Source: a virus. From it: DNA of 23,503 bases. Of this stretch, positions 6,315 to 23,205 are shown piece by piece. Under the pieces are notes generated by a model. That model was not told the origin of the DNA and searched no databases. It saw nothing but the letters and a program-made list of their open reading frames with translations. The DNA lies in IMG/VR virus record IMGVR_UViG_3300002835_001116, positions 1-23,503 of that record; one strand, given 5' to 3'. Each line of letters starts with the position of its first letter. The first letter of the stretch is position 1. Position numbers and translations under genes: made by a program.

Positions 6315-9300
6315 TCAGACGGAATATGGTATAATTTGATTTCCTGAATTAATAATATTTGATCCATTAATAATAGTACAACCAGTGAATGTTGATGTAG
6401 TTTTTCCAGTATATTGAACAACAGTATACTGTCCAGTAGAAGAAGCCTGTAATAAGTAACCTGTAGTTGGGAATGCAGAAATATTTCCCACAACACCAAT
6501 TATACTTGAAGAAGATAAATTAGATCCGACTGCATAGACTACAGGATTTTGAATAGAAGGAATTCCCATATTAAATCTTTCTCCTGTCAATGTAATTGCA
6601 GAAGTTGGTCTTTCCGTAAAATCATTAATTGTCAATGATGGATACGCTAAAGATAACTCTAGTAATGACATGCCAGAGTTAAATGTTCCAGTATCAATAA
6701 ACATATTATCTTGGAAAGATTTTAAAGTTAATCCAACGTTTCCTACTTGATATGAAGTATAAAACTCTTCACGGAATATGGTTTTATTAATAACATTTAT
6801 TGTACTTAAATTTCTCAATACAACTTCATTTTCTGGATCTTCTAATGTAATTTCTCCTGTTCTAGTCTTAATTGGGTTAAACAATACTACAGACTCTTCA
6901 AAATAATCTAGAACTCCAAACTTGCGGAATATTTCAATATCTGCATTTTTAGCTACATTAGTTGTAATTACTTTACTAAATGTGTATGCAGAAACAGGAA
7001 CATCAATTTCCGATACAATTGAAGAAGAAATTACATTATTAAATTGACTTATTAGTTCTGCTGTTTCTTTTAGAATTTCAATGTCGGTATTAACAATTGT
7101 GTTTGTGGCAGAACTTATTGTCTCAATAGAATTAGCAAGTATCGTTTGTATTGATGAAGAATAAATTTGTTGATAAGTATCAATTACAGAATTAATACCA
7201 GTTACGTACTCAGTGCCATTTTGCTGTATCGTAGTAACAAAACTAGTGATCTTAGAATCTGGTGGAGCAATAACAATTTCAGTAACTATACGGCTATTTG
7301 CATTTTGTATGTCAATTTGCTCAATTGATATAATATTTGTAGCTGTATCTTGTATAGTTACTACAGGAGTATCATCATATAAAACCTGAGTGCTTCTTAC
7401 CGATTCAAAATAAGTAGTACTGATTTGAGATACAGTAACTTCAGTAATAATTTCTGTAGTTGGCCCAGCAGAAACTACAGTTACAAGTTCAGGTAAGTGT
7501 CTAAGATAATCACCTGCATTATGAGTTGTTGCAGTAGTTCCGAATGTTCCACGAGCAACATCTAAGAAACGATCACTTAGCTTTTTGTTATAAGTTACAA
7601 TTTCTTTTCCAATAAGTAATCTACTAGAATCTGGGAATCTGCTTGTATCAGGAATATAAACAATAGTATCAGTTTCAGTGAGGGGAAGATCCAAGAATGC
7701 TCCAACATCATTAATAGAATATGGTGCAGTTTCAATAATAGAATTATTAACTACTTTGGTAATATTCTTTGTGATTTGTCTATCAGTTGAAGTTACTGTA
7801 GAACGAGAAATTACATCGAATGGAACATCAATAATATTTGTAATCTGTCTATCAGTAGAAACAATACTACTGAATTCAATTGGTCTAATAAATCCAGCAG
7901 AAACATAAAGTTCTGTGTATAATTTTTTATTTTCTAATCCAACATCATTAATTGTTTGAATGATTGCAGTGATATTTCCTTCAATACTGAGATTATTAGG
8001 ACCATTAAAAGAAATAATTTCTAGTACATTACCTTCAACTCTAGCAGTTTGTACATCAACAAAGCTAGAAAAAGTTAATGTAAATCCAGTAATTTCTATA
8101 TTTAAATTCAGCTCAGTAAAGCTATCAATTTTCCTATTAGGATCCTTGATAATATCATAACCCCTAGAAACTACTACTGTAGGAGCTTCTATGTATCCAG
8201 AACCACCGTCAAGTAATTTAAGATCAATTACTTGACCATCATATACAATAACTTCAGCTCTAGCACCACCACCAGTTTTATCATTTGGAATAAACTGTAA
8301 AATTGGTGGTGTATAATATTGATATGCAGTTGGTTGCAATAATAAGTTATATTTAAAATATAATTCTAATTCTCTCTTATTCCAATCTAAAGAAACAACT
8401 TTTCCATTGGCGATATTTGCAATAACTGCTAGTCCTTCGCCTCTAACAATATCATTATAGTTTGTAGCAAAAATTTTGCTATAAACATTATTACTTACAA
8501 AAGAATCATAACGATAATCTTTTGTTTTTACTTTAGCTGGTATTGATGAAACTTCACGATATGCTTTTTCTCCATCAATTTTAATTAAATCACCTGGATG
8601 TAAATTAGCATATGATCTGGTTTGTTCATACCAAGCTTTGTCAGCTAATTCAGAACCATATAAGTATCTGCTGCTAGATCTGCTTAATAATCTATCTCCA
8701 TCAGTATTCTGTTCGTATAAAGTAGAAAGTTGATATGGGCCAGAAATGGTCAGATCTGAAGGATCATTCAGACCTGGATGGGTAGAAAATTTGAGCGAGT
8801 AATTAGAATTGTATAAGACGTTTTGTGATGATAAAGTTATATTCCATTGGGTTTCCGTTGCTTTTCTAAAAGCTCTTAATTTTCCTAGTGCTTTATTATT
8901 TTGATATACCCAAATTTCTTTCGTTCCTACAGGACCATACCAATTTATAAACTGGGTATATGTACCAGAACCAGTAATTGTTAATGTTAATTTATTGTAG
9001 AAAGTATCTTTTTCAAAATCATAAACTGTTAATGATTGAGCAATATCTCTACCATATAATAGAATTATATTGACATCAGGATAAATGGCTTCGCCACTTT
9101 CTGACACAAAATAATTTAATGGTTTAGTAAATGTTATTGTAGGACCACTTATTCTATATGATTCTCCTTCTACTTGTAGAACACCATCAATAAAAACTAA
9201 AGCGTATTTTGAATTATCAATTTTCTTTACTCGTTGAGTAATTTCATCAATGATTAAAAATGGGCCAGTTCTTCTATACTCAATTAAATCATTATTAATT

Positions 9301-12300
9301 TTTAATCTCAAGTAAGAACCAATTGTATATCCAAATGAAGACTCCCTGCCAGATAGTTGTGGCTCGGTATTTTCATCTATGTCAGAATGTTTGATCGGTG
9401 GATCAGAAAATACAATTTTATCAGTAACATCAGGATCATCTGATCTTAAGATATAATATGAATTTTTTTCTGGTAAATAATTTAACTCTTCAGTTGAAGT
9501 ATCAATAACAGATGATTTTGCTTTTTGAACAATTGAGTTTAATGTTATGATTAAATTCTCATTTTTATCTGTCTTTACTATATCATTATTGTCATAATAC
9601 AAATCAAATTGCATATTTACGCCATCAAATTCAGACTCAATTGATCTTAATTTTCTTAAGTATTCAAAATTTAAATCATCTGTCTTGAATTTAAAATATC
9701 TACCATAAAATTTCTGGCCAGTAACATATTGACCTTCTGTTGTGTTTGATCCAAACGGAGGATAACTAAAAGTAATCTGTGTGCCGCTTACAGTGTATGC
9801 TTCGCCAGGTTCTTGTAAAACTCCATCTAAAGTAATTATTAATTGTTGCTCATTATATGGAGCAATTGGCAATCCAGATTTTTTATCAATTAATGTAAAA
9901 ACAGTATCTCCAATTGGCTGACCATCATAAGAATCTAATCTACCATTAAACGGAGTGGAAAGAATAAATTCGCCAGCGATAGTTTCTGAATTATCAAAAG
10001 TATCTACCGAAATAGATCCAAGACCTCTTTCGACTTTAAAAGCATTTAAGTTTACAAATGATTCGGTTACATATCTTCTAGTTCCAATTACGGAAATATT
10101 TTTTGCTCCAAGATTTATAAATGTAACTGACTCTGTTTTATTTGCTTCTATTTCTGATGGCATAGAAGTATTGCCATCAGATTCTACCGCAACTTCGCCA
10201 AACAGTTTAAAACCAGCTGGGTGTACAGTTTCTTTAATTAAATCTCTCCAAACAGAAATTGGAGTTTTTGATTTAATTACATAAGAGTAATCTTGATAAA
10301 AGAATGAATCAGTGATCTTTTGCGAAGAAACACCAATCTTTCCTTTATCCGAAGCAAATCTTCCTTGATTGTCAAAGAAGGTTCTGATATCTGGAGCAAA
10401 TACAGTTGATAATACTGCCTTAATCGTCGCAGTATTATTTTTGACCGTGCCTTTGATTGGTAATGATTTATCAATTACACCATTAATTTTTTCAAGTCTA
10501 AGAATATTGCTTCCTGGTCTAAATCCATTTTTGGCAACAACAGCAGAAAAAATAATATTTCCGTTATCATATTGAACTACCTTTTCGCCTATAGCAAAAG
10601 CATTGTCTACTACATCTTCAAGAAGTAGTGTTGTTGGAGATTTAAATTCGGGATATAATGTTTTGTCGTTATGGAAGGCATAACCATTTTCGACAATACT
10701 AACTGTTTGGGGAATGCCAATATTATTACTAGAAAAATATACTTTTACATCAGTTTCTATAATCTTTATTGTTGGGAGATATGAGTAATTTCTTCCTTCG
10801 TTGCGAACAGTAACTCTATTAATTGCGCCCGAATCTACTGATACTTCAAATTGAGCATCAGATCCATCTCCATCTACAACAATTGCTTTTGGTTTGGAAT
10901 AATTTGACCCACCATCAATAATAGCAATAGATTTAATTTTTTTCTCTACAGCATCATAAATCACATCAATTTTAGCTTCATACTCTTCGGCAACATCAAT
11001 TCCATACACAGTAGGAACACGACGATAATCATCTCCAAAATTTTCAATTAATATACTGTTTATTTTGCCGATAGCAAATTTAGATGATGTTGTGTAATCG
11101 ATTGTACCTGTACCATCATATTCTGGAACGCCAGATAGATTGTAAACAAATTTAGTATCTGTGGAATAAACTACTTCCTTTTCTCCTGTCAGTGGATCAT
11201 CTACTACTTGTAGATACGAATTTTGTGTATTTACATCAGATACTTTAATAAAATAAAAATAATTGGTGAAATTGATTGGTTTTTTCTGCTCAAATGTATT
11301 TGTTGAAATATTTGGTCCAAATCCCAATTTAATCGACAAATAAGATCCAGGGTTGCCAGGAGAAATGCTACTTACAAACTTTTCTTCTGTAAATACATTA
11401 TAATTTGAACTGGAAGAAAAGTCCAAATAAGTATCAGTCATTGAAAAATGACTTACATCAAATCTGTATTTGTAGTATTTTTGGATTTGTACAACTGGAT
11501 TGGCAGCAAAATTTGTGTTATCTTTGGAAAATTCTAGTCTATATTCAGAAGAATCCGTGGAAGAAATAGTTACTAATTTTCTTGGGCTGCTTGCATCATA
11601 AAAAGTATTACTTCTTAGTAGTTGATTTGGAGATGATGAAGAGTAATCAAACACCAATGTTAGTTCTTGTGTTTTTTCGTCATAAGAAGATACATATGGA
11701 TCATTTAATCCATCACCTTTAATTCTTTGTTCTTCAGTAAATCTGTATCTTGCATTCAATGAAGATATTTCTTTGCCATTATAATGATCTACAATACGAG
11801 TTTGATTTTGACCACGAACAACAAAGACAGATTTATTGATTTCGTTTACAGAAGTAACTTTAACAATTTCGTCACCTATCTGTAAAAGGTCATCATTAGA
11901 AACACTAACAATAGAATTCAATTTCAATTCTGTATTTTCTTTAGCAAATCCAACATGATCAACTAATAAAGTAAGTCTTTGTGTAGAAACACTCGATACT
12001 AATCTATTCAGATCATCATCGGCTACAGTTAAAATATCTCCTTTTCTGTAACCAGTACCTTTATTTGTGATTATTACCTGTACAACTCCACCATAATTAG
12101 AACCATTTGCACCAGAAACGATTATAGTAGCTCTAGCGTTACCAGGATCGCCAGGAAGACCAATTTCATTTCTTGCTGTAGTATTATTTTGAAAAACTAA
12201 TTCTACGTTGGTATAAGTGCCGACAGAGTAATCTACGCCACTATTTAATAGATCATAACGACCTAAACCAAGGTCATTAATCTTTTTGATTACTCTAGGA

Positions 12301-15300
12301 GCTTTTAATGTTACTTTTTGATAATATCTTTTTCTGACATAATATTCTGTTTCAGTTAAAGAATCATCTGGATTTACATCAATAATAACTTTATCGCCAA
12401 TAGTTAGATTGTGATTCTCATCTGTTTCTACAATGGCAATATTGTCATTAATTGTGTTAGCAACGATGCCAATACTTAATGAATTTAGAATAATAATTTT
12501 AGAACCAACAGTATCATTTAAGTTACCACTCTTTAGGAATAAGGTGTTATCAACTAAGAAATTACCAGTTAATACTTTTAATTTTAAACTATTTTGATTG
12601 TTAGTAGTTTCTAAAACCAATCCAGTAGCTACTGGATCATCAATGCCATTTGATAAAGATATGACACTACCTGCAGTAAATGAAGAGTTTTGACTTAAAA
12701 CTAAATTAATTACATTAATAGTGGATTCAATTTCTTCATTTGGTTCAAAAGATCCACTAACATCTCTTAAAACTAATTGATTGTTATTAATTACGTTACC
12801 AATTAATGTACCAACAGCACCAGTTGATGGTTGGGTGATAGTATCACCTTCAAAATAATATGCAGTCTGTAACGTTTTAATTTCTGTAGCTTTTGTTTGT
12901 TTTGTTTCCAGAGATAAAACATTTTTGCCTACAACAGAGGCTACTGAAGCTGCTGCCCCACTTCCTTCAGTATTCGAATTATTGATTCTTACTACAGAAC
13001 CAACTTTAAAGTTATTGTGGGAATCTTCTACTGTAGCACCAGATACTCCACCAGTTTTGACACTTTCAATATAAGCATATGCACTAGAGCCATTATTTTC
13101 TAATTCAGGAGTTCTTAATCTTCTAGCTTTTACTGGAAGATCATTTTGTGAAATATTTGAATTGTAATTAGAGTCTACAGGTAAAGAATAATAGTTTTTA
13201 CCTAAAATATAAGGAAAAACTGGAACATTACTTGAATTGACTGTCAAGAAATACGCATAAACACCATTTGGATAATCAGGAGTAACACAAAATCTACCAT
13301 TATTTTCGTCTAGCTCTGTTTTTCCTGTGTTGACAGATGGTTTCCATTCATAGTCTTCAATAAAAGTACCTAATGGATATGTGTTTACCGAAGGACCATT
13401 TAGACGAGAAGATTTTAATTGATAACCAGAAGATAACCTTACTACCAAAGAAGAAGGATCTGTTGGATTTTGGTATCCAAATGGACCATAAATTGGCACA
13501 CCATCATAAGCAAAACCAAGTATTGGTGAATGAGTTTTATATGATGGCTCGTTAAATGCAGAATTTAAATTATCATTGAGCAGTATTCTCAATCTGGTTG
13601 GGTTTGCTATTCTGCCGTAAACATAATCTTTATCTTGTCTATTGATACTATCATAAGTTTCGACAACATAACCATAGCTGTCATCAACTTTTAATTCATT
13701 TTTCTTTAATCTATCAAAAGACCACTTCTCGATTTCAGCAAATGCACTTGCTTCTGTTCCTCTAGCATCTTCTATTACTTCAACTACAACATTTTCTTTG
13801 GTGTAAAACTTCCCTTCGTCTACTTTGACAAAATCTACAAGTTGACCTTTTGGTGATATTACAGCTGTATAATCTGCAAATTTGCCTCTACCTGCCAAAT
13901 CAGTGATTCTAATAACAGGTGGAGATGAATAGTATTCACCTGGATTTCTAATAATTAAACTAGTTATCTTGCCACTAGTAACTACAGCATCTACTTTGGC
14001 TCCTCTACCAGAAGTTATAGTTATTGAAGGAATTCTTGTAAATGATTCGGTAGTATTGATCGCAATTGATTCTAAAACTTCACCTGATAAAGATGCATTG
14101 GCTTTCTTTGGTTGATCGTTAATTAATACAAATGGAGGGTTCTTGTACCCTGTGCCATTTTTTGTTACTGTTATTTTAGTAATTTTGCCAAAATTGACAA
14201 ATTCACTGTCTTTGTGGTTTAAAACTAGTGTACCATCAACAAAAATACCAACGTCTCTATTGCCAGTTGAGTATACTTCTGTTGTTGTGGTGGGATTTTT
14301 TCTGATTAAACGAAGTAAATTCTGACCAACTAAGTTTACGTCAACTTCACTCGACAAAATATCATGTGATGGATAACCAGAAGAACAGATGTAATAATAC
14401 TGGTCATCTTCGTAAATTGCTGAAACATTAGCGAGTTCTTCAGAAACAGCATTTTGAAGTGCTACATTAGATTGAATACTTGGTGAAAGATTGGATTCGT
14501 TAATAATCCACCTAACATTATTTGTTGTCTTATTAAAAATTATTGGATCTCTGGTTTCAAAACCAGAATCTGAAATTTGGATAGCATCTTTTTCTTCGGA
14601 ATAAGGTGCTGCTTGAGCAACATTTAAGTTGTATAAAATTCCTAAAGTTAGTAAAGATGTTTCTTTGCAAGTTACTGTCGAGAATGAATATACATTATCT
14701 CCTGCAAAATGTGTAGAAGGCGGTGTTCCTCGTTGATCTACTACAAATTGAGTTGCATTTTTTGCATTATATTTGATAACTTCATTGCCAATCAAAATTT
14801 TTCCAGTAGACTTCCAACCCATGGTGGAACCTACATTAATTTTTTGTCCTGTGGATAATCCTGTGGTGATTGATTTTCTTAATGTTGTTTTGGAAGCAAT
14901 CTCAAATGTTCCATTAATTGTAGCTGGATCTAATATAATTTCGTATATGTCACCTTCTTCTGTAGATCCTTTGAATACAACGTTATCAACAATAGCCGAT
15001 GCATACAGCATATCTGGCTTTGTTTCGTCTAGTGCTTGAGTTAGACGTTCTCCAATTATTGATAAAGGATCTCCAGACAGAAACTTTACTTTTAAAGAGT
15101 ATGTTGATACCCAATCAGAAGTAGATGCTTTGATTGTGGAATCTTTTGGATTGTATACTTCAGGGATATCTCCTGCATCTCTGGATACAATAGAATTAAA
15201 AATAAATTTAATTGACTTATCAGTACCTTTTGCTTTATAAAATTTACTGATATTTTTGATCAGGGTTCTTTTATCAACCTGACCCTTCAAATACTTTTCT

Positions 15301-15821
15301 GGGAAAGCTCCTAAGTACTGAGACTCGAAGTTTTTAATGAATGCATATAAAAACAGATTACTTACATTATAAACTAACTGCCCCGCTTCATGGGAGGCTG
15401 ATTCTGTAGATACAAATGTAGTTTCTGAATAAAGGTCTCCTAGAGTAGTATTTCCACTAACTCCTCTAGAAACATCTAAAAATTCTGTATCTGTTCTAGA
15501 TTTGTAGAAACAGATTTCATTATTGATGCGAATATAACCATTCTCTTTAGGGAATGATGTTGCATCTAATACAGTAATACTAGCAGCATTATCACTAATA
15601 TTAGATACTAGTGTGGTATATTGATTTAAAAGATTCTCTTCATAGAAGTCAATATCACGATATTTTGTGATATTACTAATAATATCGATGGGTTGACCCT
15701 GCGACTCTAACTGCTCGTAGTACTTTTCTACGAACTTAGAAAAATTTACGTATTCGGAAGATATGAACCCTGGTAACTGTTGTTCGACGAGGGTTGAAAT
15801 TTTTCTAGTTTTTGGAGCCAT
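6315..15821 (-). CDS. 7: Giant baseplate wedge protein, gp7-like, with YHYH module
   Basis: This 3168-aa protein sits exactly where T4 gp7 (1032 aa) sits, between gp6 and gp8. Two blocks resemble the C-terminal part of T4 gp7 as I recall it. Residues 20-212 contain YVNFSKFVEKYYEQLES, QVDKRTLIKNISKFYKAKG and KGTDKSIKFIFNS (T4 KGIEASYKFLFKV). Residues about 1855-1875 contain SVWRDLIKETVHPAGFKLFG (T4 SSRWKSDVIRFVHPVGFGFI), followed by VTFINLG (T4 FINVG). About 1,600 residues are inserted between them, including a YHYH-type module at about 766-880 (GFAYDGVPIYGPFGY, then NGRFCVTPDYPNGVYAYF). Several GxGYxxxP repeats and four LxIGxEIxxY...DVxRG modules are scattered along the chain. Residues about 2570-2970 are rich in I, T, S and V and repeat STDRQIT. 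The ATG lies 5 nt after the gp6 stop, so translation is probably coupled. In T4, gp7 is the scaffold on which the wedge assembles. The assignment to the gp7 position is firm; the rest of the chain is beta-rich and unassigned. Confidence 0.85.
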   Translation of the reverse strand: MAPKTRKISTLVEQQLPGFISSEYVNFSKFVEKYYEQLESQGQPIDIISNITKYRDIDFYEENLLNQYTTLVSNISDNAASITVLDATSFPKENGYIRINNEICFYKSRTDTEFLDVSRGVSGNTTLGDLYSETTFVSTESASHEAGQLVYNVSNLFLYAFIKNFESQYLGAFPEKYLKGQVDKRTLIKNISKFYKAKGTDKSIKFIFNSIVSRDAGDIPEVYNPKDSTIKASTSDWVSTYSLKVKFLSGDPLSIIGERLTQALDETKPDMLYASAIVDNVVFKGSTEEGDIYEIILDPATINGTFEIASKTTLRKSITTGLSTGQKINVGSTMGWKSTGKILIGNEVIKYNAKNATQFVVDQRGTPPSTHFAGDNVYSFSTVTCKETSLLTLGILYNLNVAQAAPYSEEKDAIQISDSGFETRDPIIFNKTTNNVRWIINESNLSPSIQSNVALQNAVSEELANVSAIYEDDQYYYICSSGYPSHDILSSEVDVNLVGQNLLRLIRKNPTTTTEVYSTGNRDVGIFVDGTLVLNHKDSEFVNFGKITKITVTKNGTGYKNPPFVLINDQPKKANASLSGEVLESIAINTTESFTRIPSITITSGRGAKVDAVVTSGKITSLIIRNPGEYYSSPPVIRITDLAGRGKFADYTAVISPKGQLVDFVKVDEGKFYTKENVVVEVIEDARGTEASAFAEIEKWSFDRLKKNELKVDDSYGYVVETYDSINRQDKDYVYGRIANPTRLRILLNDNLNSAFNEPSYKTHSPILGFAYDGVPIYGPFGYQNPTDPSSLVVRLSSGYQLKSSRLNGPSVNTYPLGTFIEDYEWKPSVNTGKTELDENNGRFCVTPDYPNGVYAYFLTVNSSNVPVFPYILGKNYYSLPVDSNYNSNISQNDLPVKARRLRTPELENNGSSAYAYIESVKTGGVSGATVEDSHNNFKVGSVVRINNSNTEGSGAAASVASVVGKNVLSLETKQTKATEIKTLQTAYYFEGDTITQPSTGAVGTLIGNVINNNQLVLRDVSGSFEPNEEIESTINVINLVLSQNSSFTAGSVISLSNGIDDPVATGLVLETTNNQNSLKLKVLTGNFLVDNTLFLKSGNLNDTVGSKIIILNSLSIGIVANTINDNIAIVETDENHNLTIGDKVIIDVNPDDSLTETEYYVRKRYYQKVTLKAPRVIKKINDLGLGRYDLLNSGVDYSVGTYTNVELVFQNNTTARNEIGLPGDPGNARATIIVSGANGSNYGGVVQVIITNKGTGYRKGDILTVADDDLNRLVSSVSTQRLTLLVDHVGFAKENTELKLNSIVSVSNDDLLQIGDEIVKVTSVNEINKSVFVVRGQNQTRIVDHYNGKEISSLNARYRFTEEQRIKGDGLNDPYVSSYDEKTQELTLVFDYSSSSPNQLLRSNTFYDASSPRKLVTISSTDSSEYRLEFSKDNTNFAANPVVQIQKYYKYRFDVSHFSMTDTYLDFSSSSNYNVFTEEKFVSSISPGNPGSYLSIKLGFGPNISTNTFEQKKPINFTNYFYFIKVSDVNTQNSYLQVVDDPLTGEKEVVYSTDTKFVYNLSGVPEYDGTGTIDYTTSSKFAIGKINSILIENFGDDYRRVPTVYGIDVAEEYEAKIDVIYDAVEKKIKSIAIIDGGSNYSKPKAIVVDGDGSDAQFEVSVDSGAINRVTVRNEGRNYSYLPTIKIIETDVKVYFSSNNIGIPQTVSIVENGYAFHNDKTLYPEFKSPTTLLLEDVVDNAFAIGEKVVQYDNGNIIFSAVVAKNGFRPGSNILRLEKINGVIDKSLPIKGTVKNNTATIKAVLSTVFAPDIRTFFDNQGRFASDKGKIGVSSQKITDSFFYQDYSYVIKSKTPISVWRDLIKETVHPAGFKLFGEVAVESDGNTSMPSEIEANKTESVTFINLGAKNISVIGTRRYVTESFVNLNAFKVERGLGSISVDTFDNSETIAGEFILSTPFNGRLDSYDGQPIGDTVFTLIDKKSGLPIAPYNEQQLIITLDGVLQEPGEAYTVSGTQITFSYPPFGSNTTEGQYVTGQKFYGRYFKFKTDDLNFEYLRKLRSIESEFDGVNMQFDLYYDNNDIVKTDKNENLIITLNSIVQKAKSSVIDTSTEELNYLPEKNSYYILRSDDPDVTDKIVFSDPPIKHSDIDENTEPQLSGRESSFGYTIGSYLRLKINNDLIEYRRTGPFLIIDEITQRVKKIDNSKYALVFIDGVLQVEGESYRISGPTITFTKPLNYFVSESGEAIYPDVNIILLYGRDIAQSLTVYDFEKDTFYNKLTLTITGSGTYTQFINWYGPVGTKEIWVYQNNKALGKLRAFRKATETQWNITLSSQNVLYNSNYSLKFSTHPGLNDPSDLTISGPYQLSTLYEQNTDGDRLLSRSSSRYLYGSELADKAWYEQTRSYANLHPGDLIKIDGEKAYREVSSIPAKVKTKDYRYDSFVSNNVYSKIFATNYNDIVRGEGLAVIANIANGKVVSLDWNKRELELYFKYNLLLQPTAYQYYTPPILQFIPNDKTGGGARAEVIVYDGQVIDLKLLDGGSGYIEAPTVVVSRGYDIIKDPNRKIDSFTELNLNIEITGFTLTFSSFVDVQTARVEGNVLEIISFNGPNNLSIEGNITAIIQTINDVGLENKKLYTELYVSAGFIRPIEFSSIVSTDRQITNIIDVPFDVISRSTVTSTDRQITKNITKVVNNSIIETAPYSINDVGAFLDLPLTETDTIVYIPDTSRFPDSSRLLIGKEIVTYNKKLSDRFLDVARGTFGTTATTHNAGDYLRHLPELVTVVSAGPTTEIITEVTVSQISTTYFESVRSTQVLYDDTPVVTIQDTATNIISIEQIDIQNANSRIVTEIVIAPPDSKITSFVTTIQQNGTEYVTGINSVIDTYQQIYSSSIQTILANSIETISSATNTIVNTDIEILKETAELISQFNNVISSSIVSEIDVPVSAYTFSKVITTNVAKNADIEIFRKFGVLDYFEESVVLFNPIKTRTGEITLEDPENEVVLRNLSTINVINKTIFREEFYTSYQVGNVGLTLKSFQDNMFIDTGTFNSGMSLLELSLAYPSLTINDFTERPTSAITLTGERFNMGIPSIQNPVVYAVGSNLSSSSIIGVVGNISAFPTTGYLLQASSTGQYTVVQYTGKTTSTFTGCTIINGSNIINSGNQIIPYSV

Positions 15822-20180: not shown

Positions 20181-20207
20181 GGGGGAGTTAGCTATATTCA
20201 CTCCCCC
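20181..20207 (-). promoter_or_regulatory. G5/C5 hairpin with TATA-like loop
   Basis: A perfect 8-bp stem GGGGGAGT/ACTCCCCC encloses an 11-base loop that on the minus strand reads GAATATAGCTA. It lies 10 bp past the stop at 20218 and 28 bp before the ATG at 20152. It may end the upstream transcript (no U-run follows), start the next one, or both. Confidence 0.5.
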
Positions 20208-20217
20208 GTGGGGTTTG

Positions 20218-20511
20218 TTACACCGTGGTGTTCTTATCCTGTGCCCAATTGCGTAGACGAGCGTTGCTTGCTTTGTTGAACACTCGGTCGCAAATGTTGC
20301 CATCAACGTTGAGATGACGGTTCACAGATTTGGCACACTGCTTGAGTGCATCCCGACCCAACTTGCGGTTGGATTTGTGATCACCACTGGTGGCAAGATC
20401 GAACAGGATGGTGGCACGACGGGGACCGATCTTGCGGGGGTTGTTGATGAGAATGGACGCAAGATCGGTGGGGTTGTTGAACAGAACTGCGAGGCGGGTG
20501 CTGTTGAACAT
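20218..20511 (-). CDS. Hypothetical basic protein, 97 aa
   Basis: I do not recognise this protein. It begins MFNSTRLAVLFNNPTDLASI and continues LINNPRKIGPRRATILFDLA, then a basic stretch (DHKSNRKLGRDALKQCAKSV), and ends NARLRNWAQDKNTTV. It has a net positive charge, no signal peptide and no obvious membrane span. NNP occurs twice (NNPTDLA, NNPRKIG) in the first 26 residues. It may be a small helical DNA- or RNA-binding protein, but there is no motif to prove it. The start is preceded by CTTCCAGGACA, without a Shine-Dalgarno, and by a cassette with a TGCCATACTAT box. Confidence 0.7.
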   Translation of the reverse strand: MFNSTRLAVLFNNPTDLASILINNPRKIGPRRATILFDLATSGDHKSNRKLGRDALKQCAKSVNRHLNVDGNICDRVFNKASNARLRNWAQDKNTTV

Positions 20512-20544: not shown

Positions 20545-20587
20545 TTCCCCCCTCGATGCCTATAGTATGGCACAGCTGAGGGGGGAA
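20545..20587 (-). promoter_or_regulatory. Promoter cassette: -10-like box in the loop of a G6/C6 hairpin
   Basis: A perfect 10-bp stem (TTCCCCCCTC and GAGGGGGGAA on the plus strand) encloses a 23-base loop. On the minus strand the loop contains TGCCATACTATAG (20560-20572), whose TACTAT fits a -10 element. No convincing -35 lies 16-18 bp upstream. The box lies 49 bp before the ATG at 20511. The transcribed leader could form its own GAGGGG/CCCCTC hairpin. Confidence 0.55.
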
Positions 20588-20598
20588 TGGTGATTTAC

Positions 20599-20622
20599 TG
20601 TGCCACTTTGATTAGTGGCACA
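20599..20622 (-). terminator. Hairpin GTGCCACT/AGTGGCAC after the 49-aa gene
   Basis: A perfect 9-bp inverted repeat with a six-base loop begins six bases past the stop at 20628. It has no U-run afterwards (AGTAAATC), so it may be an RNA 3'-end stabiliser or a weak terminator rather than a classic one. The same GTGCCA/TGGCAC words recur in other gaps of this cluster. Confidence 0.5.
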
Positions 20623-20627
20623 CGGTA

Positions 20628-20777
20628 TCACGAATCTTGGAGAATTTGTGCTATGAGAGAATCCAATTCTCCCAAGATTTCCTCAGATTCGTTATCATCG
20701 AGATTTTCAAAATCCTCGATAATTTGTGATACCAACTCGTCGATCTGTTGCTCGTCAGTGTAAGCGAGGCTGGTCAT
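20628..20777 (-). CDS. Acidic small protein, 49 aa
   Basis: A complete frame starts MTSLAYTDEQQIDELVSQII, continues EDFENLDDNESEEILGELDS and ends LIAQILQDS. It has about 17 acidic and no basic residues, so it is extremely acidic. Leu/Ile spacing suggests two amphipathic helices (IDELVSQIIEDF and ILGELDSLIAQIL). I recognise no family. Very acidic small phage proteins can act as DNA mimics or inhibitors of host enzymes, but that is speculation here. It lies 24 bp downstream of the 57-aa gene and is probably co-transcribed with it. The ATG is preceded by CACGAACC, without a Shine-Dalgarno. A hairpin follows its stop. Confidence 0.65.
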   Translation of the reverse strand: MTSLAYTDEQQIDELVSQIIEDFENLDDNESEEILGELDSLIAQILQDS

Positions 20778-20801
20778 GGTTCGTGTTAGTTAGTGGGTGA
20801 A

Positions 20802-20975
20802 TCAGTGACGGTCGGAGATGTTGAAAACTCCCCAGCCACCAGTTACACGTTCGTGCTCAAGTTGGCGGGTGTCGATTGCATCCAGACGCTGTTGGGAAGT
20901 GTACTTATCCCAGAGAGAATAATCGCTGCTGTTGTAGCAATCATTCCAGATCTGGTTTGCTTCTTCGAGGGTCAT
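20802..20975 (-). CDS. Hypothetical protein, 57 aa
   Basis: A complete frame starts MTLEEANQIWNDCYNSSDYS, continues LWDKYTSQQRLDAIDTRQLE and ends HERVTGGWGVFNISDRH. It is soluble in character, with helices likely at residues 3-13 and 21-43. Two Trp-containing motifs (QIWNDCY and GGWGVF) stand out. I do not recognise a family. Its leader contains one of the two identical 29-bp repeats (20984-21012), directly after the stop of the exported-type gene at 21014. No Shine-Dalgarno is present; the ATG follows ACACCCAACC. Function unknown. Confidence 0.6.
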   Translation of the reverse strand: MTLEEANQIWNDCYNSSDYSLWDKYTSQQRLDAIDTRQLEHERVTGGWGVFNISDRH

Positions 20976-20983
20976 GGTTGGGT

Positions 20984-21012
20984 GTCTGTGGTTGACTTGA
21001 TCAGTCTACAGG
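20984..21012 (-). repeat. 29-bp leader repeat, copy 1
   Basis: The minus strand reads CCTGTAGACTGATCAAGTCA followed by ACCACAGAC. It is identical to 21398-21426. It lies between the stop at 21014 and the ATG at 20975, so it is the leader of the 57-aa gene. Its core GACTGATCAAGTC is nearly palindromic, as an operator would be. Confidence 0.85.
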
Positions 21013-21013
21013 G

Positions 21014-21190
21014 TCAGGGGAGCTGGCAGCTGCCAGGTAGGACACTGTTGTAAGTGGCACAGCGGCGCTCGGTGGCGGCGTTCACAGCCCCCACAGTGTC
21101 AGCAGCGAACCCGATGGCAGCGGCACCCACAGCCCCGATGGGAGCATAGAGAGCAGCACCGATGGAGAGCAGGGCGATGGTCTTGAGCAT
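21014..21190 (-). CDS. Small exported-type di-cysteine protein A, 58 aa
   Basis: A complete frame starts MLKTIALLSIGAALYAPIGA, continues VGAAAIGFAADTVGAVNAAT and ends ERRCATYNSVLPGSCQLP. Residues 5-30 are hydrophobic and Gly/Ala-rich after a single Lys, fitting a signal peptide or one membrane span. The outer part would carry Cys44 and Cys55, which could form a disulphide. Length, layout and the C-terminal C...C..QLP pattern resemble the next gene upstream (58 aa, C42 and C51). Codons are strongly GC-rich. A possible role in altering the host envelope or as a lysis helper is inference only. The leader has a short variant of the repeated leader (GTCTAGACTAACCACA). Confidence 0.65.
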   Translation of the reverse strand: MLKTIALLSIGAALYAPIGAVGAAAIGFAADTVGAVNAATERRCATYNSVLPGSCQLP

Positions 21191-21215
21191 GGGGGTGGGT
21201 GTCGTTGTGGTTAGT

Positions 21216-21392
21216 CTAGACGGTGGGCAGCTGATCCAGGCAGTCGCTCAGCCGCTCTGTGGGGTGGCACAGGGGGGCGGTGCTCTGGAGAGCCTTGGCA
21301 TCCCTCAGGGAAGCGAACAGCGGCAGCCCCACCACGATTCCCAGGGCAGCAGCAGCGAGGATGGCAGCAGACAGGCGCTCGGCGGTTTTCAT
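21216..21392 (-). CDS. Small exported-type di-cysteine protein B, 58 aa
   Basis: A complete frame starts MKTAERLSAAILAAAALGIV, continues VGLPLFASLRDAKALQSTAP and ends LCHPTERLSDCLDQLPTV. Residues 7-28 form a strong hydrophobic segment after a positively charged N-terminus, a likely signal anchor or signal peptide; AQS-like or ASLRDA sites could be cleaved. Cys42 and Cys51 lie in the polar tail, near a QLP ending like that of protein A. The leader holds the second copy of the 29-bp repeat. The gene follows GP88 by 72 bp. Family unknown. The two proteins may come from an old tandem duplication, although sequence identity is low. Confidence 0.65.
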   Translation of the reverse strand: MKTAERLSAAILAAAALGIVVGLPLFASLRDAKALQSTAPLCHPTERLSDCLDQLPTV

Positions 21393-21397
21393 GGGTC

Positions 21398-21426
21398 GTC
21401 TGTGGTTGACTTGATCAGTCTACAGG
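21398..21426 (-). repeat. 29-bp leader repeat, copy 2
   Basis: This copy is identical to 20984-21012 and lies 6 bp before the ATG at 21392. It is the leader of exported-type protein B. A third, shortened relative (GTCTAGACTAACCACAACGAC on the minus strand, about 21202-21222) precedes protein A. Confidence 0.85.
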
Positions 21427-21433
21427 CAGGGGT

Positions 21434-21451
21434 GGGGGCAGTGGTGCCCCC
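21434..21451 (-). terminator. GGGGGCA/TGCCCCC hairpin after GP88
   Basis: A perfect 7-bp stem with a four-base loop lies 14 bp beyond the GP88 stop. No U-run follows on the minus strand. A GGCACACAG word just before it resembles the GGCACAGT of the other cassettes, so it probably belongs to the same set of intergenic modules. Confidence 0.45.
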
Positions 21452-21464
21452 TGTGTGCCACCTG

Positions 21465-22211
21465 TCAGACTGCCACAGGCTGGCTGGCGGTCGCCTTGCT
21501 GTAGCCTCCAAACTGCCCAGCCTGCCGCCGCTGGCGGATCGCCTTGCCCCAGTCGCTGCCCTTGGGTTGGGTGCCATGCACCAGGAGGGCGAACGGTGCA
21601 GCCTCGAAACAGTGGCTGTCGTCGTGATCAACAATCAAACCAGCAGCGTTAGCATCTGCTTCTGTCATGAACACTTTGCTATAGCGAGTGAACACACCTT
21701 CATCGATCAGGTAGTCAAACTTGCCACCATAGCTTGCCGTCATGTAGAAGTTAGAGGGCAACTCCAAACCAACAAACAGTGGCAGATTCTTGCTGTAGCA
21801 GTAGAACTTCAGATCAGGATTGTGCATAGCAACCATAACCCACGCCTGAAGGTAAGCTGCGTTGAAGAAGTCCCCCGACTCATGAATTCGGACGAGTTTA
21901 GTAGACTTTTTGCGAGCTTTTTGCAATTCAGTGTTGATAAGATCAGCACAATTGCCAGACTTGAGAGCTTCAACAATTGTTTTAAAGTTGTGTTGGCGGT
22001 TGTGGAAAACTGCATCATATTGCACCTCGGAGGATGCAGCGAAGCAACGAAACTCGGTGTGCTTACCATCAACAATAGAACGCTTGCCGTTCTCATCTGC
22101 AACTGCCATAGAGAAGCATTGCAGAGCACCAGGGCAGGTAGAACCTGCAGGCAGGCTGAAAATCAGGGTGCCTTTGTTAAGCTTAGCGTTACCCTTGGAG
22201 AAGTGAAGCAT
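21465..22211 (-). CDS. Gene product 88 (GP88) family protein
   Basis: This 248-aa protein matches the phage GP88 family (named for mycobacteriophage L5 gp88) in its hallmark motifs. They are FSKGNAKLNKG at 4-14, FSLPAGSTCPGALQC at 18-32, TEFRCFAAS at 52-60, VRIHESGDFFNAAYLQAW at 107-124, FYCYSKNLP at 136-144, VDHDDSHC at 194-201 and FALLVHGTQPKGS at 207-219. Cysteines at 26, 32, 56, 138 and 201 and the His/Asp-rich motifs suggest metal or Fe-S binding, which is inference; the family has no established function that I know. The ATG at 22211 is chosen because the family motif begins right after it. A longer reading to 22307 runs through the promoter box and has an atypical Pro-rich start. Codons are markedly GC-rich toward the 3' end. 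It is preceded by a TGCCATACTAT cassette. Confidence 0.88.
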   Translation of the reverse strand: MLHFSKGNAKLNKGTLIFSLPAGSTCPGALQCFSMAVADENGKRSIVDGKHTEFRCFAASSEVQYDAVFHNRQHNFKTIVEALKSGNCADLINTELQKARKKSTKLVRIHESGDFFNAAYLQAWVMVAMHNPDLKFYCYSKNLPLFVGLELPSNFYMTASYGGKFDYLIDEGVFTRYSKVFMTEADANAAGLIVDHDDSHCFEAAPFALLVHGTQPKGSDWGKAIRQRRQAGQFGGYSKATASQPVAV

Positions 22212-22253
22212 GGCTCTGTGTGGTGGTGGGAGGCTGTCTTGCCCCCCGTTGAA

Positions 22254-22278
22254 CATAGTATGGCACCCCCTGAGGGGT
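22254..22278 (-). promoter_or_regulatory. Promoter cassette upstream of GP88
   Basis: On the minus strand a short hairpin ACCCC-TCA-GGGGGT (22265-22278) runs directly into TGCCATACTATG (22254-22265), followed by a GGGGGG run. The TACTAT fits a -10 element and lies 45 bp before the GP88 ATG. No -35 is visible at normal spacing. The same box occurs at 20560-20572 and 23094-23105. Confidence 0.55.
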
Positions 22279-22318
22279 CTGGGGTCAGTTGGTGGACAGT
22301 GCCCCAACTGGCACAGGG

Positions 22319-22510
22319 TCAGAAGTCTACACTCCAGTCTGTGTCATTCTTTACAGCAACCCAAAAAAAGTATTTGCCATTAGTAGAACGAAGGAACACA
22401 CGGTTCTCTTTAATCTGTTCTACAATACACTCGGGGTTGCTATTCATCATGTTAGCGAATCTGTTCTTCGCTTTCTTAGACTTAGGTGTGACAAATGCGA
22501 GGTCGAACAT
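22319..22510 (-). CDS. Hypothetical protein, 63 aa
   Basis: The protein reads MFDLAFVTPKSKKAKNRFAN, then MMNSNPECIVEQIKENRVFL, and ends RSTNGKYFFWVAVKNDTDWSVDF. The second half looks like a small beta sheet (VEQIKENRVFLRS followed by KYFFWVAVKND), and the first part is a basic helix (SKKAKNRFANMMN). I do not recognise a family; the fold might be a small substrate- or RNA-binding sheet. Its start lies 9 bp after the stop of the 59-aa gene, so the two are probably one transcript. Its stop lies within the GTGCCA-type repeat region in front of GP88. Confidence 0.7.
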   Translation of the reverse strand: MFDLAFVTPKSKKAKNRFANMMNSNPECIVEQIKENRVFLRSTNGKYFFWVAVKNDTDWSVDF

Positions 22511-22519
22511 GATGCAAAC

Positions 22520-22699
22520 TCACAGAACGTAGTAACCTTGAGCAGCAAACAATTGGGGTCGATTCTGTTGCCAACCGTTCAGCATCTGTTGCAGTTGCTG
22601 ATTAGAATACCTGTTCACCCAGGTATATTCAGCAGTGGAACAGTTGTTGTCAACCCGAAGAAAATTGATGATGGTTTGAATAGCTTTGGAGCGATTCAT
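22520..22699 (-). CDS. Hypothetical protein, 59 aa
   Basis: A complete frame starts MNRSKAIQTIINFLRVDNNC, continues STAEYTWVNRYSNQQLQQML and ends NGWQQNRPQLFAAQGYYVL. It appears helical (residues 3-16 and 32-46), is Gln/Asn-rich, and has no signal peptide. I recognise no family. It is the first gene after a TATACT box with an adjacent G6/C6 hairpin (22719-22745). Its leader, AACAAACAACC, lacks a Shine-Dalgarno and is free of G and T apart from the ATG. It is probably co-transcribed with the 63-aa gene that follows 9 bp later. Confidence 0.65.
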   Translation of the reverse strand: MNRSKAIQTIINFLRVDNNCSTAEYTWVNRYSNQQLQQMLNGWQQNRPQLFAAQGYYVL

Positions 22700-22718
22700 G
22701 GTTGTTTGTTTGAACTGA

Positions 22719-22745
22719 GGTTAGTATAGGGGGCATCCAGCCCCC
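22719..22745 (-). promoter_or_regulatory. Hairpin plus TATACT promoter before the 59-aa gene
   Basis: A perfect 6-bp stem GGGGGC/GCCCCC with a TGGAT loop (22729-22745) is followed on the minus strand by TATACTAACC. TATACT matches five of six bases of a bacterial -10. The ATG lies about 22 bp further on. The box is a variant of the TGCCATACTAT boxes of the other cassettes. Confidence 0.55.
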
Positions 22746-22754
22746 CTGTGGGTG

Positions 22755-23048
22755 CTACTGTGCCAGTTCAGAAAGTGTCACATCACACACCCGATAGTAG
22801 GCTTTCTCTGTGATAGAATTAAGAAACAGCAGAACACGTTGAGTATAACGAAGCAGGGTTTCACGCCCACCTTCATTATACCAATCGCTGACACGGTTAG
22901 CAACCCAAACCGTGACGCCGACGATGAATCCAACCACCGTGGCGATTGTATAAAGAATCTGTTGGATGGTCTCGTTGTTAGCAACCTCATCCATCAGTTC
23001 ATTATACTTTTCGACGATGGGGTTGTTGAGAAGAATTGCGGTGTTCAT
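22755..23048 (-). CDS. Single-span membrane protein, 97 aa
   Basis: The protein starts MNTAILLNNPIVEKYNELMD and has a clear membrane span at about residues 31-53 (ILYTIATVVGFIVGVTVWVA). A mixed-charge tail follows (WYNEGGRETLLRYTQRVLLF, then ITEKAYYRVCDVTLSELAQ). The N-terminal part is acidic and the region after the span carries R residues, so the C-terminus is probably cytoplasmic by the positive-inside rule, but this is not certain. I chose the ATG at 23048; an extended start to 23147 would run through the promoter box. The last codons (SELAQ stop) lie inside a 26-bp repeat. Family unknown; a small phage membrane protein of the accessory type. Confidence 0.72.
   Translation of the reverse strand: MNTAILLNNPIVEKYNELMDEVANNETIQQILYTIATVVGFIVGVTVWVANRVSDWYNEGGRETLLRYTQRVLLFLNSITEKAYYRVCDVTLSELAQ
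22757..22782 (-). repeat. 26-bp intergenic repeat, copy 1
   Basis: On the minus strand this reads TGTGACACTTTCTGAACTGG followed by CACAGT. It matches 23131-23156 in 24 of 26 bases. It overlaps the last codons of the 97-aa gene. Its ends can form a short imperfect hairpin. Confidence 0.8.
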
Positions 23049-23072
23049 TGTTGTAGAGAATTGAACAGTGGT

Positions 23073-23105
23073 GGCTGATCCCTCAGCCATGCACACAGTA
23101 TGGCA
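23073..23105 (-). promoter_or_regulatory. Promoter cassette upstream of the 97-aa gene
   Basis: On the minus strand TGCCATACTGTG (23094-23105) is followed by a 6-bp hairpin GGCTGA/TCAGCC with a GGGA loop (23073-23088). The box shares nine bases (TGCCATACT) with those at 20560 and 22254. A TTGCAT lies upstream of it at a spacing a little longer than the usual -35. Confidence 0.5.
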
Positions 23106-23130: not shown

Positions 23131-23156
23131 ACTGTGCCAGTTCCCAAAGTGTCACA
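23131..23156 (-). repeat. 26-bp intergenic repeat, copy 2
   Basis: The minus strand reads TGTGACACTTTGGGAACTGG followed by CACAGT, two mismatches from 22757-22782. It lies between the terminator at 23171 and the promoter cassette of the 97-aa gene. Confidence 0.8.
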
Positions 23157-23170
23157 GGGTCACTTGACAA

Positions 23171-23205
23171 ACAATAAAATACCCCCTAGAATACACTAGA
23201 GGGTA
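23171..23205 (-). terminator. Rho-independent terminator after the 41-aa gene
   Basis: On the minus strand TACCCTCTAG-TGTATT-CTAGGGGGTA forms a 10-bp stem (one G-T pair) followed by TTTTATTGTTTG. It lies 22 bp beyond the stop at 23228 and marks the left end of that transcript. Confidence 0.85.

Follow-up and report, generated by a model that had tools for sequence, protein, structure and literature searches.

A putative activator-assisted promoter module with a conserved dyad ahead of small genes in T4-like cyanophages

The DNA analysed here (the window) is the 23.5-kb IMG/VR virus record IMGVR_UViG_3300002835_001116, positions 1 to 23,503, whose minus strand carries T4-like baseplate genes and, further to the right, a row of small genes. 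Region 20,545-23,105 has its best match in the Synechococcus phages Sf-FR1 and S-SRM01, and the source of the window is therefore a T4-like cyanophage. The initial annotation had singled out in this region the nine-letter word TGCCATACT as a box tied to hairpins of G and C runs, and proposed a class of phage promoters needing a special factor or a DNA hairpin. Here we describe a larger promoter module whose main part, a 24-bp dyad, was absent from that annotation. Six copies of the dyad, two of them variants, are present in the window, and the six modules lie within 2.6 kb, each ahead of a small minus-strand gene (Table 1).

The dyad is an imperfect one, TGTG(A/C)CA(G/C)TynnnnAA(G/C)TG(G/T)CACA (in short form TGTGaCAsTynnnnAAsTGgCACA), and is followed at 29-32 bp by the beginning of a -10 hexamer, which may be TATAAT, TATACT, CATACT or TAGACT, often with a TG extension. 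Placing the -10 at -12 to -7 puts the dyad at about -66 to -43, with its centre near -54. This spacing is strict: at 106 dyad sites, oriented by the neighbouring open reading frame (ORF), the -10 was found at offsets 29-32 in 98 counts, compared to about 2 per offset elsewhere, and of 502 sites taken from related viral contigs, 90% carry a -10 at 29-32 nt to one side or both, where control windows give 9% per side. The distance between the arms is also kept, as the pattern GTGNCA-N10-TGNCAC is shared by 19 of 22 records, the window among them (reversed control, 0), with 95 occurrences in 15 contigs that cluster in the small-gene region, and a version one base shorter between the arms is found in none of 21 phage contigs, compared to 18 of 21 for the right spacing. 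An ORF starts 30-220 nt downstream (median 61) in 369 of the 389 unambiguously oriented sites, and stop codons of the upstream gene cluster from -10 to +20 of the dyad start (sites L005-L265). The TGA within TGTGACA can itself act as the stop codon of the upstream gene.

Apart from the -10, the rest of the promoter is less constant. TGn precedes the -10 in 30% of sites, and the -30 region has no conservation beyond a partial TTG at -35. The absence of a convincing -35, remarked on in the initial annotation, holds in the window, whereas in the wider class roughly one site in three (32-37%; shuffles, 3.6%) has TTG at -35 with a 16-18 nt spacer. The two arms of the dyad differ at position 7, where one carries G and the opposite one C, and a second asymmetry tracks the direction of transcription, A4/G19 and C4/T19 being present in 165 and 32 of the -10-oriented dyads, respectively. 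A peculiar arrangement was observed at L170 and L211 (contig IMGVR_UViG_3300008113_001711), and also at L174 and L223, where at least 8 dyad copies recur every 57-62 bp in a tandem array, with TTGACA after each copy but without a clear -10.

The nine-letter word itself can be understood as merely the -10 end of this module. It does occur three times on the minus strand of the window as had been claimed, its copies ending 45-52 nt ahead of an ATG where about 45-50 bp had been given, and the variant TATACT noted at 22719-22728 is present as well (exact positions in Table 1). Three exact copies in 23.5 kb exceed the Markov expectation of ~0.15 (scaled from 11.5 in 1.86 Mb), and with one mismatch the word is not enriched in the window compared to shuffles (8 against a mean of 5.7). 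In 1.86 Mb of related genomes 28 exact copies were counted against 11.5 expected. An exact loose dyad precedes 8 of these copies and a variant dyad, recognized by eye, precedes 9 others, and the 11 that are left match the chance level. A chance origin of the word fits these dyad-less copies but fails for the whole module, and the frequency of copies in genes and in gaps, by which the proposed class was to be refuted, is relevant to the bare word only.

Table 1. Components of the predicted promoter modules, a solitary hairpin, and the genes behind the modules (window coordinates; nt, distance from dyad to -10)
Feature	Position	Strand	Remark
Dyad GTGCCACTAATCAAAGTGGCAC	20600-20621	-	Predicted promoter of gene 20218-20511; 30 nt
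Extended -10 TGCCATACT, hexamer CATACT 20564-20569	20564-20572	-	Predicted start near 20557
Variant dyad GTGCCACTTACAACAGTGTCCT	21039-21060	-	30 nt
-10 TAGACT, then GATCAAGTCAACC	21003-21008	-	Predicted promoter of 57-aa ORF 20802-20975
Dyad GTGGCAGTCTGACAGGTGGCAC	21455-21476	-	32 nt
Hairpin GGGGGCACCACTGCCCCC	21434-21451	-	Between dyad and -10; terminator-like, without T-run
-10 TAGACT	21417-21422	-	Predicted promoter of 58-aa ORF 21216-21392
Variant dyad GTGCCAGTTGGGGCACTGTCCA	22293-22314	-	30 nt
Extended -10 TGCCATACT, hexamer 22257-22262	22257-22265	-	Predicted promoter of GP88-domain gene
Dyad GTGACACTTTCTGAACTGGCAC	22760-22781	-	Within last codons of upstream gene; 31 nt
Hairpin GGGGGCTGGATGCCCCC	22729-22745	-	In spacer; terminator-like, without T-run
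-10 TATACT	22723-22728	-	Predicted promoter of 59-aa ORF 22520-22699
Dyad GTGACACTTTGGGAACTGGCAC	23134-23155	-	31 nt to minus-strand -10
Extended -10 TGCCATACT, hexamer 23097-23102	23097-23105	-	Predicted promoter of 97-aa ORF 22755-23048
Hairpin GGGGGAGTGAATATAGCTAACTCCCCC	20181-20207	-	Between two genes; without dyad or -10 beside it
97-aa ORF	20218-20511	-	Behind dyad 20600-20621; no family match
57-aa ORF	20802-20975	-	Behind variant dyad 21039-21060; weak phrog_10986 match
58-aa ORF	21216-21392	-	Behind dyad 21455-21476
GP88-domain gene	21465-22211	-	PF17338, E 5.9e-41; behind variant dyad 22293-22314
59-aa ORF	22520-22699	-	Behind dyad 22760-22781
97-aa ORF	22755-23048	-	Behind dyad 23134-23155; weak 8xMP similarity, below cut-off

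In a repeat search of the window the dyad is seen as a 26-nt repeat, ACTGTGCCAGTT....AAAGTGTCACA, adjoining the boxes. The idea that each small gene is given its own transcript applies to most of the genes, as judged by the presence of a module, but ORFs 22319-22510 and 20628-20777 are without one; the former (phrog_1653) starts 9 nt after the 59-aa ORF and the two probably share one transcript. The predicted promoter upstream of the GP88-domain gene has been retained in related phages. Indeed, in 63 related contigs inspected by eye upstream of this gene, most show the dyad, a spacer, the -10, a leader like CAGTTCACACC or CAAGTCAACC, and the ATG. Relatives of the GP88-domain protein are found in cyanophages, and more distant ones in mycobacteriophages and Streptomyces phages. 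Elsewhere in the window, a single ORF of 3168 aa (6315-15821) lies between the baseplate genes, in the place where the annotations of S-PM2 and S-SRM01 have structural proteins of very large size.

The module is spread widely among cyanophages. A weight matrix built from the IMG/VR sites alone was applied to cultured phages with complete or near-complete genomes and, at the lowest threshold, gave 6 matches in Syn9, 11 in S-PM2, 16 in S-SRM01, 21 in P-SSM2 and 3 in S-RSM4, all of them Kyanoviridae; since strong dyads score on both strands, the distinct places are fewer than these counts. Dyads were located, for example, at 20397 and 20654 in S-PM2, at 48558 and 52996 in Syn9, and at 60626 and 61988 in P-SSM2. 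At the same threshold no match was obtained in T4, in S-CBWM1, or in five shuffles of each genome. Moreover, orthologous genes keep the module in more than one phage despite their differing genome positions, as seen for a 320-aa gene (Syn9, S-SRM01, and P-SSM2), a 707-aa gene (Syn9 and P-SSM2), a DUF7717 gene (S-RSM4 and S-SRM01), and a 79-aa gene (S-PM2 and S-RSM4). A blastn search of 50,697 phage records with the dyad matched 75, of which 74 are cyanophages and one is not, and within IMG/VR the dyad is present in at least 120 stretches. On the contrary, it is near chance in 84,980 bacterial species (11 matches, about 7.5 expected) and without excess in 194 cyanobacterial genomes (10 matches, about 6.5 expected). 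In Syn9 (DQ149023, 48558-48640) the -10 of a module overlaps the annotated start of gp73 (48608), and the real start codon of this gene is therefore probably located about 28 nt further in.

Taken as a whole, the module is likely to represent a compact promoter class common to the T4-like cyanophages (Kyanoviridae), in which a host sigma-70 promoter is assisted by a dimeric, probably phage-encoded activator at the dyad. An operator at a fixed distance from the -10 is what is found in an activator-dependent sigma-70 promoter, and because the conserved dyad keeps this distance, the special factor proposed in the initial annotation appears likely, as does its class of promoters ahead of many small genes; the role given there to the hairpin finds no support, as discussed below. 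A DNA-binding dimer, probably a phage product made early, would occupy the dyad and bring in host RNA polymerase carrying its main sigma factor, helping where the -35 is poor, and each small gene or gene pair would have a start of its own. The dyad usually overlaps the stop codon of the upstream gene, and any terminator that this gene has would be folded into the promoter spacer. The distribution of the dyad points to a phage-encoded factor, which we favour because the dyad is nearly confined to cyanophages and is near chance in bacteria and cyanobacteria.

Several observations weigh against this proposal. A classical activator would not usually be centred near -54, as the dyad is, and about 10% of the 502 dyads have no -10 at the right distance. 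Furthermore, a -10 is present at the right distance on both sides of the dyad at 126 of the 502 sites, where about 41 would be expected, which means that direction is not always set. In the window the dyad at 23134-23155 has a second -10 facing the plus strand (TTGACA-17-TAGAAT at 23164-23192), and such both-sided arrangements (23133-23192 and related sites) suggest bidirectional or antisense starts. A host factor with looser, degenerate sites is possible as well. Finally, no binding protein was identified when the factor was sought among the 36 genes that Syn9, S-PM2, S-RSM4, P-SSM2, and S-SRM01 have in common and that T4 and S-CBWM1 lack. One of these genes encodes a protein of 54-70 aa with a helix-turn-helix-like stretch, which has no match to a Pfam or PDB family and matches only PHROGs of unknown function; to name this protein or the DUF7717 protein as the factor would be a guess.

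An activator is not the only kind of protein that could occupy such a dyad. It may be an operator for a repressor or a roadblock, shutting the promoter later in infection or stopping polymerase that arrives from the upstream gene, and its location at the upstream stop codon would indeed be a good place for a roadblock, while a fair -35 is present at some sites, which might function unaided. However, repressor sites usually overlap the -35 to +1 region, whereas the dyad ends at about -43 with a tight spacing to the -10, and two thirds of the sites are without a TTG at -35, so that they would be weak in the absence of an activator; we consider this explanation unlikely. It is likewise doubtful that a host regulator binds the dyad, by which the phages would be tapping a host regulon. 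Both the -10 and the -35 belong to the host sigma-70 type, and cyanophages are known to carry host-type regulatory sites, namely NtcA sites (PMC3037559), but the dyad has no excess in the 194 cyanobacterial genomes or the 84,980 species.

The hairpins deserve separate consideration, since in the model of the initial annotation the G/C hairpin, as extruded DNA, would be the element by which the promoter is recognized. All the hairpins listed there exist, and a sixth (21434-21451) was missing from that list, yet their places are inconsistent: one is situated in the spacer (22729-22745), another overlaps -15 (22265-22278), a third flanks the box (20545-20587), a fourth is downstream in the leader (23073-23088), and the last is at no promoter module (20181-20207). 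In favour of the model, strong stems between the dyad and the -10 occur at 27% of sites, a 12-fold excess over shuffles (2.3%). However, 44% of sites have no hairpin and the spacing from dyad to -10 is the same with and without one, while the arms vary (77 arm pairs in 106 sites) with their pairing kept, and the position varies also. Early promoters of phage N4 have small inverted repeats beside the start region, and a hairpin of that type would be expected in every promoter at a fixed place; the cyanophage hairpins are optional and variable in both place and sequence, and to our knowledge there is no virion polymerase in the T4-like cyanophage family. Instead, the G/C hairpins look like terminators, mostly, of the preceding gene, because a same-strand gene ends at the dyad more often where a hairpin is present (87 of 106 sites, compared to 99 of 171 without; p 2.5e-5) and T is raised in the 7 nt past the stem (2.6 against 1.8 expected, with 4 or more T in 25%). 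A stem followed by a T-run was found in fourteen sites and is clear in L013, L032, L157, and L253; this reading is less sure for the copies without a T-run, such as those in the window. The hairpin at 20181-20207, having no dyad or -10, fits the terminator reading and is probably a plain terminator. As an element of promoter recognition the hairpin is thus very improbable.

Hardly more credible is a role of the dyad in RNA, as a 3′ stem-loop for end protection or processing of the upstream transcript that the promoter merely follows: the dyad is located on or after the upstream stop codon, and perfect inverted repeats are found among its copies (20600-20621, for example), but columns 7 and 16 pair in only 25% of sites against 44% under independence (about 8 standard deviations below), because one arm has G where the other has C, columns 4 and 19 pair in 40% against 47%, and the fixed distance to the -10 is left unexplained. 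An RNA family search of the window gave no match, and judged from its sequence the dyad is an element of the DNA rather than a stem in RNA.

How does the activator-assisted module relate to known promoters? In promoters of the CRP type a dyad, centred at -41.5 or -61.5, precedes a sigma-70 promoter at a constrained distance; this layout is shared, but the cyanophage dyad is centred elsewhere and differs in sequence and half-site spacing. The T4-type late promoter has TATAAATA as its sole element, unlike the TATAAT or TATACT -10 with an upstream dyad seen here. In T4 middle promoters, which serve non-late genes, a host sigma-70 type -10 and a poor -35 are combined with an upstream factor-bound element at a fixed distance, this element being the MotA box, short and asymmetric, at about -30. 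The cyanophage module likewise has a sigma-70 type -10, an often poor -35, and a fixed-distance upstream element, and would work like a T4 middle promoter, its closest analogue, without being a member of that class. It is not a member because the MotA box and its factor are absent: the conserved element is the dyad and there is no MotA box at about -30, and the cyanomyoviruses are without motA and asiA (PMC2984593). The T4 genome, for its part, is without the module. Early promoters of S-PM2 and Syn9, phages of the same family, are sigma-70-like with a -10 and -35 of the host type, and as summarised they comprise only this host-type motif and no dyad (PMC2984593). No earlier description of the dyad was found in the literature searched; the Syn9 transcriptome study (Doron et al., ISME J) was outside that search.

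It has been pointed out that the control of early and middle transcription in T4-like cyanophages is unclear (PMC2984593). A bolder proposal, which we put forward tentatively as a serious but not favoured possibility, is that every T4-like cyanophage has its own, so far undescribed, transcription activator, which binds the 24-bp dyad and governs a regulon of small genes in the early or middle phase, being the missing counterpart of MotA, and that a fixed G/C asymmetry of the arms at position 7 helps set direction. T4-like cyanophages are among the commonest marine viruses, and the module bears on how their non-late genes may be controlled without MotA and AsiA. The dyad could serve as bait for isolating the factor and as a way to sort small genes into a regulon, and a family-wide dyad promoter would provide a sequence model predicting the starts of dozens of unknown small genes, in a compact layout where stop codon, terminator, and next promoter overlap.

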